From Candidatus Methanomethylophilaceae archaeon (GTDB taxonomy: Archaea; Thermoplasmatota; Thermoplasmata; Methanomassiliicoccales; Methanomethylophilaceae): a stretch of 44,587 nt of DNA. Both the position numbers and the translations under genes were made by a program. The notes below the pieces were generated by a model. That model was not told where the DNA came from. It did no database searches and saw only the letters and a program-made list of their open reading frames with translations. Position 1 is the stretch's first letter; each line of letters opens with the position of its first letter. Positions 3-16,315 of the stretch are shown here, in pieces. Location: positions 1 through 44,587 of the forward strand of contig JAFYAH010000028.1 of the NCBI GenBank assembly GCA_017540825.1, given 5' to 3'.

Positions 3-713
3 GTTGTCCAGTACGTCCGCGAGCTGCCCTTCGAGAGCGCCGTGTATCCTGCCAATATGTACCATAGATTATCGGATGGCAGTGATGGCTGCAGGAAGGG
101 CCTGATCACCTGGTGCCCTTCCGGCCATGATCAGGAGCGCCCGAAGAGGAAGGGATGCGGGTTCATCAGGGAGAAGGGCTCCGTCGGCGACGAAGGGATT
201 CGCTACACCGCCTGCTCAGACGACAAGACCCATTATGCGAGGGGCAGGAGGTCCCACTGCTGGTCGCTCCATTGCCCCGAGTGCATGAACGACGTCGCCT
301 TAAGAGCGGGGACGAGGGTTGAGGAGCAGCTGAACGCCTACCGCATCTTAACAGAGAAGCAGGGAGGCGATCCGGGACCGCTGGGGCACTGGGTGGTCTC
401 CCCTCCCCAGAAGGAGGCCAAGAGGTGGGTGCAGACCATCGGCGTTTTCGGCGCCCTCAGGAAGCACGTGGAAGGCGGTCTCCAGGACGTGGAGGCGAAG
501 GCCGGATGCCTGGTCTTCCATCCCTGGAGGCAGACCCTTCAGCTGCTGGTATACTATCTGATGTGCCGGCGTTCCGACGACAGGGTGCTGAAAGGGGTCT
601 CGTCCTTCGGGATGTTCAACCCCCGCCTGAACGCCTCGTACAGTCTCCGTGCGAATCTGATTCCGTCAGCGATAATCGACACTGTGGCGAGGGACGTTAT
701 AGGATACAGATGA
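3..713 (+). CDS. Rep-like (rolling-circle replication type) protein, 5' partial and probably truncated
   Basis: The frame is open to the left edge of the window, so the gene may begin outside it; internal starts are GTG at 42 and ATG at 57. A Cys/His cluster (two Cys before position 240, then His-Cys...His-Cys-x-x-Cys) looks like the N-terminal zinc-binding part of archaeal plasmid Rep-like proteins. It is followed by the motifs HWVVSPPQ and GCLVFHPWR, which I associate from memory with that family. The downstream His-x-His motif expected in the family is not visible, and the protein ends about 50 residues after FHPWR. I infer a decayed or C-terminally truncated replication or transposition protein of an integrated element. 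The assignment is tentative. Confidence 0.45.
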   Translation, partial: VVQYVRELPFESAVYPANMYHRLSDGSDGCRKGLITWCPSGHDQERPKRKGCGFIREKGSVGDEGIRYTACSDDKTHYARGRRSHCWSLHCPECMNDVALRAGTRVEEQLNAYRILTEKQGGDPGPLGHWVVSPPQKEAKRWVQTIGVFGALRKHVEGGLQDVEAKAGCLVFHPWRQTLQLLVYYLMCRRSDDRVLKGVSSFGMFNPRLNASYSLRANLIPSAIIDTVARDVIGYR

Positions 714-805: not shown

Positions 806-1162
806 TCACTCGATTTGCCTTTTGGGTTTCGTCCTCTTTTGGGAGCTCGCAAGCGCTTTCCGTCTCAGGTCGATGGTAACGTCGTCATCGAAAACGCTGA
901 GCGCACGCTTTGACCCCGATGCTTTATTGGTCACCTTACGAGAGCTGATCATCGCATCATCCCCATGGAATTTGGAACCGGCTGGAGGCCGCTCGCTATT
1001 GCCGATGCGCGTAGGATATTGTTTCAGGACTCTGACCTCCACATCCCCTTTGGCTATGCGAGTCTAGGCGTTGTGCGTATTGGTCTGGTGATGCTTTGTT
1101 CTGGCACCTCTCTTGATGCTGTCCGCTTCCACGGAGGCTCTTGAAGCTTTGAATGTAGCCAT
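806..1162 (-). CDS. Small basic protein with in-frame TAG (candidate pyrrolysine codon), function unknown
   Basis: Starts at ATG 1162, one base after the stop of the upstream gene, with a strong Shine-Dalgarno (GGAGGAGG). After 32 codons comes TAG (1066-1064). The same frame then stays open for 84 more codons to TGA at 808-806, giving 118 residues if TAG is read as an amino acid. The part after TAG looks protein-like (acidic FDDDVTIDL segment, basic C-terminal tail). A separate start for this part would have to be GTG at 1042, whose AAGGGG is only 2 nt away, which is poor spacing. No other gene in the window stops at TAG. The alternatives are a 32-aa peptide plus a remnant, or a nonsense mutation. 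I do not recognise the family. Confidence 0.5.
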
Positions 1163-1163
1163 A

Positions 1164-1487
1164 TCAAGTCCTCCTCCTTTTGCCATTCTCATCGAAGTGC
1201 TCTTTAAAGTATTCGTCAAAGAGTGCTTCTCCCACCGCCTCATCGACGCCCCAGGTCATCAGATCTTCATATCCGCCGTCCTTTACATTGGGGAATACAT
1301 AATCGGCGATCTTCTTCTGCCACTCTTTCGAGGGGATCTGCCCCGGAGCGCCGGCGTATTGTCCCTCTTCCTCGGACATGTATCTGAGTTGCAGTCTGAG
1401 ATCCTTGTACAGCCATCTCTGCCTTACCAGCTCGATTATGAGCTCGTCCTTGCTGAGCTTCTCCAGCTCCTCCCATTCGCTAGTCAT
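1164..1487 (-). CDS. Small acidic hypothetical protein (107 aa)
   Basis: A 107-residue soluble protein rich in Glu, Asp and Lys, with an N-terminal amphipathic helical stretch (EELEKLSKDELIIELVRQR) and a basic end (GKRRRT). The start ATG is preceded by GGGGAGGTGA. The last TGA of that sequence is the stop of the upstream gene, so translation is coupled. It is the middle gene of a three-gene minus-strand operon next to a Rep-like protein and a ribbon-helix-helix regulator, so it probably belongs to an integrated element. I recognise no family. Confidence 0.6.
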   Translation of the reverse strand: MTSEWEELEKLSKDELIIELVRQRWLYKDLRLQLRYMSEEEGQYAGAPGQIPSKEWQKKIADYVFPNVKDGGYEDLMTWGVDEAVGEALFDEYFKEHFDENGKRRRT

Positions 1488-1490
1488 TTT

Positions 1491-1763
1491 TCACCTCCCC
1501 TTACAGTATTGCACGCTGATGCTCTTCCCGCCACATATGTCTGACGGAAAGTCTGCCGACATGATCCGATCATCGCACCAATTGTCCCACGGCACGAGCG
1601 GACGGCATGTCACGGGCATCCCCCGCCTCAAAAGCGGATAGGTCATCGTGCGCGTTGTTTGCATGCCGTACCGCTGAATCTGATTGGACCGATTGCTCGT
1701 CCCCTCATGCGTTCTCATGCGTGTTCTTCTCGTCTGAATCGCCCTCATTCCATTCATGGACAT
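1491..1763 (-). CDS. Hypothetical protein (90 aa), first gene of small operon
   Basis: Starts at ATG 1763 after AAGGAGAAAA. The N-terminal 40 residues are basic and Arg/Thr rich. The C-terminal half has a Trp and three Cys (WDNWCDD, DICGGK, YCKGR). The stop codon overlaps the Shine-Dalgarno of the next gene, which supports a real operon. AT-rich DNA upstream (about 1800-1940) separates it from the divergent regulator at 1955 and probably holds both promoters. Function unknown; it could be a plasmid or virus-derived accessory protein. Confidence 0.5.
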   Translation of the reverse strand: MSMNGMRAIQTRRTRMRTHEGTSNRSNQIQRYGMQTTRTMTYPLLRRGMPVTCRPLVPWDNWCDDRIMSADFPSDICGGKSISVQYCKGR

Positions 1764-2518: not shown

Positions 2519-2753
2519 GCGTGCGAGCTCTAAGTCCTATGAGAGTTTGGGCAATCACAGGTGCTTCAACAGCTATCATACAATAGGATGATGAAGAGAG
2601 GTCCACGAGATCATCAGGCGCAGGTCCAACGACAAAAAGCCGGACCCACGTCTTCCCGAAGACCCAAAAAAACGACTTAGAAAAACGCAAACGCCATTAG
2701 CCAGACCGCGAGAAACAAGGTCGTCAATTGTGCTGAATAGCATAATGTATCAG

Positions 2754-2826
2754 TGGGCCCGCCCGGATTTGAACCGGAGTCAATGGCTCCCGAAGCCACA
2801 AGGATACCAAGCTACCCCACGGGCCC
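2754..2826 (-). tRNA. tRNA-Pro (anticodon CGG)
   Basis: The minus strand folds into a full cloverleaf: acceptor GGGCCCG/CGGGCCC (7 bp), D arm, anticodon arm GTGGC-loop-GCCAT with loop TTCGGGA placing CGG at 34-36, four-base variable loop, T arm TCCGG-TTCAAAT-CCGGG, discriminator A. CCA is not encoded. No intron is visible. The 3' end faces the accessory block at 1-2700, the usual geometry for an element integrated into a tRNA 3' end. Confidence 0.93.
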
Positions 2827-14949: not shown

Positions 14950-16315
14950 AGTCGAGCTCCTTGGAGAGGACCTCGACTATCTTCTTCAGGACCTTGATCC
15001 TCCCGTACTTCTTGTCCTCCGACTCCACCACGATCCAGGGGGCGAAGTCGGTGTTGGTGGCGGAGATCATGTCGTCGATGTAGCTCTCGTAGACGTCCCA
15101 CTTCTCGCGGTTCCTCCAGTCCTCGTCGGTGATCTTGTACTGCTTGACAGGGTTCTCCGCCCTGGCGTTGAAGCGCTTGAGCTGCTCGTCCGGGCTGATC
15201 TCCATCCAGAACTTCAGGACGATGCATCCGGTCTTGGTCATGAACTCCTCGAAGCCGCGGATCTCCTTCGCGGAGCGGCCGTACTCCTCCTCGGTGCAGA
15301 ACTTCTCTATTGGCTCCACCATCATCCTGCCGTACCAGGACCTGTCGTAGATGGCTATGTGGCCGGCCTTCGGCGTCTTCACGGCGAACCTCCACATGTA
15401 GGTATGGAGCCTCTCCTCCCCGGAGGGGGCCGCGACGGGGTTGACGTAGTATCCCCTCGGGTTCAGCGCACGGGTGACGCGCTTTATGGTGCCCCCTTTC
15501 CCAGCGGCGTCCCAGCCCTCGAACACCAGCGCGAGGCTCCTGCCGCTGGTGGCCAGCTTCCCCTGCAGCCTGTTCAGCTCCATGGAGAGCCTCTGCAGGT
15601 CCGACTTGTAGTTCTTCGCCTTCTTGGTCAGGTCCGCGTCCTTGCGGGGGTTCTTGTACAGCGGCTCCACCTTCTCCGTGGTACTGGGATACCCGGAGTC
15701 TATCCTGGCCTTCACGCGGTCCAGGAATATGCGGACCACGTTGTCAACCGTCTTTATGATGTTGTCGTCGACCTTCACTATGTCCCAGGGGGCGGCTGCG
15801 GTGCTGGTGCTGGATATCAGCTTGGAGGACAGCCGGCGGTTCCATATCTCGTACTTGGAGTCGTCGTAGAGGTATGAACCCTTGGGGCCGTTCATCCATC
15901 CGTTCTCGAGCACCCTCGTCTCGTCGCTGGAGTCGAGGAATATCTTGACCAGGATTATGCCGTTGTCCGTGAAGTAGCTCTCCAGGCCCTTGAGGAAGCC
16001 CAGGCGGTCCTTCTCCACGTCGGACTGCTTCAGCCACGAGTACCAGGACCTGTCGTAGACGGCGATCTTTCCTTTGGCGGGCTCGTGGCCCATCGTCTTC
16101 ATCGCCCCCCTGCAGTCCATCTTGTCCCCGGACATGAAATGGGAGTATGTGGCCACGCGGGGGTCCAGGAGGTTCATGAACTCGTTGACGACGCTGCCCT
16201 GGACCTTCTCGTCGCGGCACTCGAAGACCACCAGCACCGGCTTCTGCTTCTCAATGATGACGCGCTGGATGACCGTTATCTCGTCCTCCAGCTCCGAGCT
16301 GACGTTATAGACCAT
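14948..16315 (-). CDS. Two-domain polyphosphate kinase 2 (PPK2 class II-like, polyP:AMP phosphotransferase type)
   Basis: 455 residues with two tandem PPK2 domains. The C-terminal domain is intact: Walker A GWDAAGKGG (267-275), Walker B-like YDRSWYGR (323-330), lid motif ENPVKQYKITDEDWRNREKW. The N-terminal domain has lost Walker A (FECRDEKVQGS at 31-41) but keeps YDRSWYSW. This pattern is that of class II PPK2, which makes ADP from AMP and polyphosphate. ATG 16315 is chosen, 25 nt from a palindromic TATA; the upstream open frame is antisense to the neighbour and is rejected. Confidence 0.9.
   Translation of the reverse strand: MVYNVSSELEDEITVIQRVIIEKQKPVLVVFECRDEKVQGSVVNEFMNLLDPRVATYSHFMSGDKMDCRGAMKTMGHEPAKGKIAVYDRSWYSWLKQSDVEKDRLGFLKGLESYFTDNGIILVKIFLDSSDETRVLENGWMNGPKGSYLYDDSKYEIWNRRLSSKLISSTSTAAAPWDIVKVDDNIIKTVDNVVRIFLDRVKARIDSGYPSTTEKVEPLYKNPRKDADLTKKAKNYKSDLQRLSMELNRLQGKLATSGRSLALVFEGWDAAGKGGTIKRVTRALNPRGYYVNPVAAPSGEERLHTYMWRFAVKTPKAGHIAIYDRSWYGRMMVEPIEKFCTEEEYGRSAKEIRGFEEFMTKTGCIVLKFWMEISPDEQLKRFNARAENPVKQYKITDEDWRNREKWDVYESYIDDMISATNTDFAPWIVVESEDKKYGRIKVLKKIVEVLSKELD

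Follow-up and report, generated by a model that had tools for sequence, protein, structure and literature searches.

A small translationally coupled gene with an in-frame TAG in a Methanomethylophilaceae archaeon, and the probable reading of this codon as pyrrolysine

Introduction

In this work, we will focus on a single codon and on the host that has to read it. Close to one end of a contig of a Candidatus Methanomethylophilaceae archaeon (44,587 nucleotides, hereafter the window, by which we mean the whole stretch of DNA that was analysed), a small gene that we term gene B carries an in-frame TAG. The question is whether this TAG ends the protein or is decoded as pyrrolysine (Pyl). We will examine the gene and its homologues, then the way in which the host lineage uses TAG, then the DNA around the gene, and finally the different manners in which the codon could be read.

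In-frame TAG codons are well documented in this group. ISO4-H5, which resembles the organism studied here in belonging to the same order, in having a full pyl operon and in carrying amber codons within genes, has 46 genes with an in-frame amber, including 10 insertion-sequence genes, cas3, 17 hypothetical genes and an adhesin-like gene (PMC5011839). For Ca. M. alvus, 16 non-methyltransferase Pyl candidates are given, cas1 among them, and they were identified by the logic followed here, that of homology on both sides of the TAG; TAG makes up only 1.6% of its stops, and the authors propose a neutral route by which TAGs within genes are retained once they are suppressed by tRNA-Pyl (PMC4153887). 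The preliminary description of the present locus supposed that such a codon in a protein of an accessory element would be new, and the insertion-sequence genes, cas3 and cas1 just mentioned contradict it. Gene B is a fresh example of a kind of gene already known by dozens in these archaea. What is new, as far as the consulted portions of these two reports go, is the gene B family, which they do not mention among the amber genes named for ISO4-H5, all of them different from gene B (PMC5011839), and the conservation across species of a TAG in a PHP-domain phosphatase, which they do not describe for Ca. M. alvus (PMC4153887).

Gene B and its TAG codon

The preliminary description had announced, from the letters of the window, a coupled small gene that meets a TAG after 32 codons and then stays open. 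Translation confirms this and places the gene on the minus strand, which had not been specified (Table 1). From the ATG at 1162, 32 codons lead to the TAG and 85 more, rather than the 84 first counted, lead to a TGA (806-808), so that the product reads MATFKASRASVEADSIKRGARTKHHQTNTHNA, then the TAG, then TRIAKGDVEVRV...KPKRQIE. The coupling is also as described: gene A, immediately upstream, stops at a TGA (1166-1164) that is separated from the ATG of gene B by the single base 1163, and a strong Shine-Dalgarno, GGAGGAGG, stands 7 nt 5' of this ATG. The earlier count of 42 assignable stops in the window, none of them TAG, is matched by the gene calls, which end with 23 TGA, 4 TAA and no TAG.

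Table 1. Features of the window around gene B
Feature	Position	Strand	Remarks
Gene B, predicted Pyl33 protein of an unnamed family	806..1162	minus	118-codon ORF; in-frame TAG is codon 33
In-frame TAG, codon 33 of gene B	1064..1066	minus	Gln (CAA/CAG), Glu (GAA) or Asn (AAC/AAT) in the other copies
Shine-Dalgarno of gene B, GGAGGAGG	1170..1177	minus	within the 3' end of gene A
Gene A, 107-aa acidic helical partner with the SEWEELEKLSKDELIIELV motif	1164..1487	minus	coupled in translation to gene B, which some genomes with gene A lack
90-codon ORF 5' of gene A	1491..1763	minus	no recognised relatives; coding status uncertain
tRNA-Pro(CGG)	2753..2826	minus	3' end towards the A-B side
Rolling-circle-type Rep remnant	3..713	plus	residues 1-180 match the Rep of many relatives

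Locally matched random sequence would give an open frame of 85 codons, free of TAA and TGA, with a probability of about 6%, so the case for gene B rests on homology. The codon score of the part after the TAG is -0.3 in the frame of gene B, whereas the two remaining frames score -16.8 and -16.2; on both sides of the TAG the scores are near zero, as they are in foreign genes.

Homologues across the TAG column

Gene B has 13 copies in 10 of the 147 genomes of the order, and within the scope searched its relatives were found only in this order. The window copy is the only one with an internal stop, and the other 12 run uninterrupted over the TAG column, where they have Asn, Gln or Glu. The nearest homologue (L056/L009, in genome G041) is 46-49% identical and has CAA at this column, which is two changes away from TAG. 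The 32-aa part matches it with an E value of 5e-11, and the 85-aa part alone matches the same protein with 2e-19, the two matches being colinear with one residue between them. In an alignment of eight copies, invariant columns stand on both sides of the TAG, those downstream being A37, P50, R58, P59, G62 and L99. None of the homologues ends at the TAG position or begins only after it, which answers favourably the check on conservation that had been proposed at the outset. Against the nearest homologue, pN is 0.31 before the TAG and 0.41 after it, for pS values of 0.88 and 0.79 that are saturated; pN lies far below pS in both parts, which argues for purifying selection on both sides. The homologues identify the 118-codon frame as the ancestral gene, which does not by itself give a date for the TAG. 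A search of gene B against all genome contigs confirmed no relative; there were none of gene A or gene B in the IMG/VR viral contigs, where the variability of the gene B profile precluded its use, none of gene A in phage records and none of gene B in plasmid records.

The protein itself has no significant match in Pfam, NCBIfam, PHROGs, PADLOC or among solved or viral folds, and fold comparisons (gene B against PDB and BFVD, gene A against PDB) gave nothing at E <= 0.001. It is basic, with a net charge of about +15, and its AlphaFold model is beta-rich (pLDDT 78, pTM 0.66). In this model, residue 33 follows a flexible loop and starts the strand 33-48, and a 32-aa product would contain the first strands only.

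The host lineage and its use of TAG

The genome to which the window belongs (G000) is a 2.37 Mb draft in 73 contigs, with an estimated contamination of 3.12%. A search for the pyl genes outside the window, called for by the preliminary description, found the whole pylT-pylS-pylB-pylC-pylD cassette. It lies on contig C68, in the order mtmB with an in-frame TAG, tRNA-Pyl (CTA anticodon, 15328-15398), pylS, pylB, pylC and pylD, the four proteins scoring 255, 433, 296 and 200 bits, respectively, each above its NCBIfam cut-off. A second mtmB with an in-frame TAG is carried by contig C57, and PylS exceeds its cut-off in 27 of the 31 genomes of the genus.

Genes other than methyltransferases carry such codons too. 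The clearest is a PHP-domain phosphatase (G000:C50:94154-94813, minus strand, L090; NF004981, 291 bits for a cut-off of 117), whose family is matched in 141 of the 147 genomes of the order and whose match, residues 3-208, spans a TAG at codon 105. Six species of the genus have the TAG at this residue, in the context EPV-TAG-QGTN/PGTN: G000 and, with proteins 82-91% identical, G080, G091, G085, G092 and G084 (L091-L095). In the 24 other genomes read in detail, residue 105 is Ala, Met or Ile. Pseudogenes do not account for a TAG that six species share at one site of a universal gene.

A sample of 407 kb of the genome served to assess TAG usage. Besides methyltransferases, six genes in this sample hold seven in-frame TAGs with coding sequence on both flanks: the PHP phosphatase, an NTP transferase, an AAA-ATPase-like protein, a HAD hydrolase, a pyruvyl-transferase/Sel1 protein and a repeat surface protein. 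Three of the six have a Pfam or NCBIfam match that extends over the TAG, and the AAA-ATPase and HAD domains run across it. The repeat surface protein (G000:C50:66420-69398, minus strand; 992 codons) has two TAGs and a strong coding signal in all three pieces. By sequence comparison, the host lineage reads TAG as sense in mtmB and in the PHP phosphatase, AAA-ATPase and HAD genes. Candidate TAG terminators amount to at most 9 of the ~242 remaining gene calls of the sample, and several of these ends are doubtful. Two apparently TAG-ended genes (G000:C57:6872-9523 and C23:90609-91757, both minus strand) have C-terminal stretches that resemble the antisense of another gene, so that their real ends, and hence whether they are real TAG terminators, are uncertain.

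Genes borne by related elements in congeners show the same feature. The gene A of G077 (C4:440275-440589, minus strand, L012/L039), with gene B directly 3', contains two TAGs in frame, each within conserved sequence (KDELII-O-LVYWKN and PCI-O-PMHRED). In G079, the rolling-circle Rep of a related element (L123, G079:C35:86105-86641, ~500 aa) has an in-frame TAG in its conserved core, at the Arg of 'AKRW'. From these two cases, TAG appears to have served as sense more than once in element-borne genes of the genus. One of the two TAGs of the G077 gene A lies in the SEWEELEKLSKDELIIELV region, where it takes the place of a Glu that is otherwise nearly invariant.

The neighbourhood of gene B

Gene A encodes an acidic protein (about -8) that is helical in its model (pLDDT 86). 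A search of all genome contigs gave 12 loci for it, and the order and coupling of A and B are preserved in other genomes. The gene A relative L055, 75-77% identical, comes without gene B; the 5.4-kb contig that carries it, with UvrA-like and helicase-like ORFs, was considered as a plasmid and rejected. At L062 and L063, in two genera, gene A (with or without gene B) is found a few kb from a ribosomal cluster of the rpl13-rps9-rpoN-like type, which suggests a common insertion site.

In the window, the A-B pair is flanked by a tRNA-Pro and a truncated Rep, which suggests that an element has integrated at the tRNA gene. The 3' end of the tRNA faces A-B, as would be expected if this segment had inserted there, on a contig without a second att site; a search for repeats of the tRNA-Pro 3' end that could mark the other end of the insert turned up just two further sites, at 1-2 mismatches. 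The homology of the Rep stops at 537-545, upstream of the HUH (HFH) motif; the 60-aa C-terminus that follows is a different one, and this break corresponds to a rearrangement or to a misjoin at the contig end. In other genomes, this C-terminus is part of other ORFs, and it matches the PADLOC model PDC-S61 (5.7e-17).

It could also be imagined that elements integrated next to tRNA genes carry, as their cargo, a complex of the acidic helical A with the basic beta-rich B. The binding is a guess drawn from the opposite charges and the coupling of the genes, and we regard the whole proposal as speculative and rather doubtful.

How UAG33 would be read

The reading that we favour, and consider probable with good confidence, is that UAG33 is decoded as pyrrolysine in a 118-aa protein, the codon having drifted neutrally at the boundary between a loop and a strand. 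Codon 33 of a functional small gene would have mutated to TAG in a host that routinely decodes UAG by tRNA-Pyl. Ribosomes would reach gene B through its coupling to gene A, that is, through the stop of A, the single nucleotide that follows, the ATG of B and the Shine-Dalgarno within A. At UAG33, the Pyl-tRNA(CUA), charged by PylS with the pyrrolysine made by PylBCD, would outcompete the release factor often enough for the protein with Pyl33 to be made, and the 32-aa product would probably be made in part as well. It is the neutral route put forward for Ca. M. alvus (PMC4153887). The sequences show the machinery, the conserved frame and the use of TAG as sense in other genes of the lineage, and from there we infer that this codon is read, that pyrrolysine is the residue, and the yield of decoding. 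Gene B presents several features expected of a Pyl protein, with tRNA-Pyl, PylRS and Pyl biosynthesis in its genome, homology on both sides of its TAG and a host that reads TAG as sense in other genes. A catalytic Pyl would go with a TAG conserved throughout the family; the other copies have N, Q or E. Pyl33 would thus be non-catalytic, standing in for Asn, Gln or Glu at the start of a strand, where the substitution is presumably tolerated.

Among the alternatives, the one that survives best is a recent nonsense mutation, by which gene B would have become a young pseudogene within an insert in decay, with termination as the main outcome at UAG33. The adjoining rep is indeed a truncated and rearranged remnant, the TAG is found in one copy of gene B only, and the nine candidate terminators of the 407-kb sample mean that TAG may still stop some genes. 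On the other hand, the 118 codons contain no second lesion and are conserved on both sides, and the universal phosphatase gene with its TAG in six species indicates that a TAG newly arisen in these hosts need not inactivate its gene. We therefore consider a pseudogene improbable. A sequencing or assembly error, or a mixture of strains, hiding a CAG or a similar codon, is very unlikely: the genome is a draft with some contamination and the contig ends 0.8 kb from the gene, next to the rearranged rep, circumstances that leave room for segment decay as well as for sequence error, but a substitution error yielding exactly TAG is a priori unlikely, and another TAG of the same genome, that of the PHP phosphatase, is backed by five other species. 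That gene B is two small proteins, a 32-aa peptide and a 78-aa product started at a downstream GTG (ORF 806-1042), is hardly credible, since the GGGG ahead of this GTG ends 2 nt before it, too near for a usual Shine-Dalgarno, all homologues have a single uninterrupted frame, and the split would sever the modelled beta-sheet past its first strands.

Relation to known pyrrolysine proteins

If UAG33 is decoded as pyrrolysine, gene B shares this with the methylamine methyltransferases MtmB, MtbB and MttB, in which the in-frame TAG is also decoded as Pyl. In these enzymes, the Pyl is catalytic and the TAG conserved, whereas neither holds for gene B. Another parallel is the tRNA-His guanylyltransferase of Methanosarcina, in which Heinemann reportedly described pyrrolysine in 2009. 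There too, the Pyl would be neutral, in a protein that has no need for it; unlike gene B, this is a housekeeping enzyme, and it was studied experimentally. Finally, a Science paper of 2025 is said to describe 'Pyl code' archaea, in which every TAG is read as Pyl. These archaea and the lineage of the window seem to have in common few TAG stops and the use of TAG as a general sense codon. In the genome of the window, by contrast, as many as 9 of the ~242 calls may still have TAG as their stop, and complete recoding is therefore not established for it.

Implications

Automatic annotation would truncate gene B, the PHP phosphatase and other proteins of these genomes at their TAG. The gene B family, with TAG in one genome and N, Q or E in others, is a natural experiment on neutral codon capture. 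For proteomics, the PHP phosphatase with its conserved TAG would be a better object than gene B, because the phosphatase gene is present nearly throughout the order.

More tentatively, and as a possibility towards which we do not yet lean, TAG may be a stably inherited general sense codon in this sub-clade, its orthologous sites persisting from species to species in housekeeping genes, and the integrated elements of the clade having adopted it in A, B and Rep. If this were true, the proteins of such elements would be truncated in hosts without the pyl cassette, and the integrated elements would be tied to Pyl-decoding hosts.
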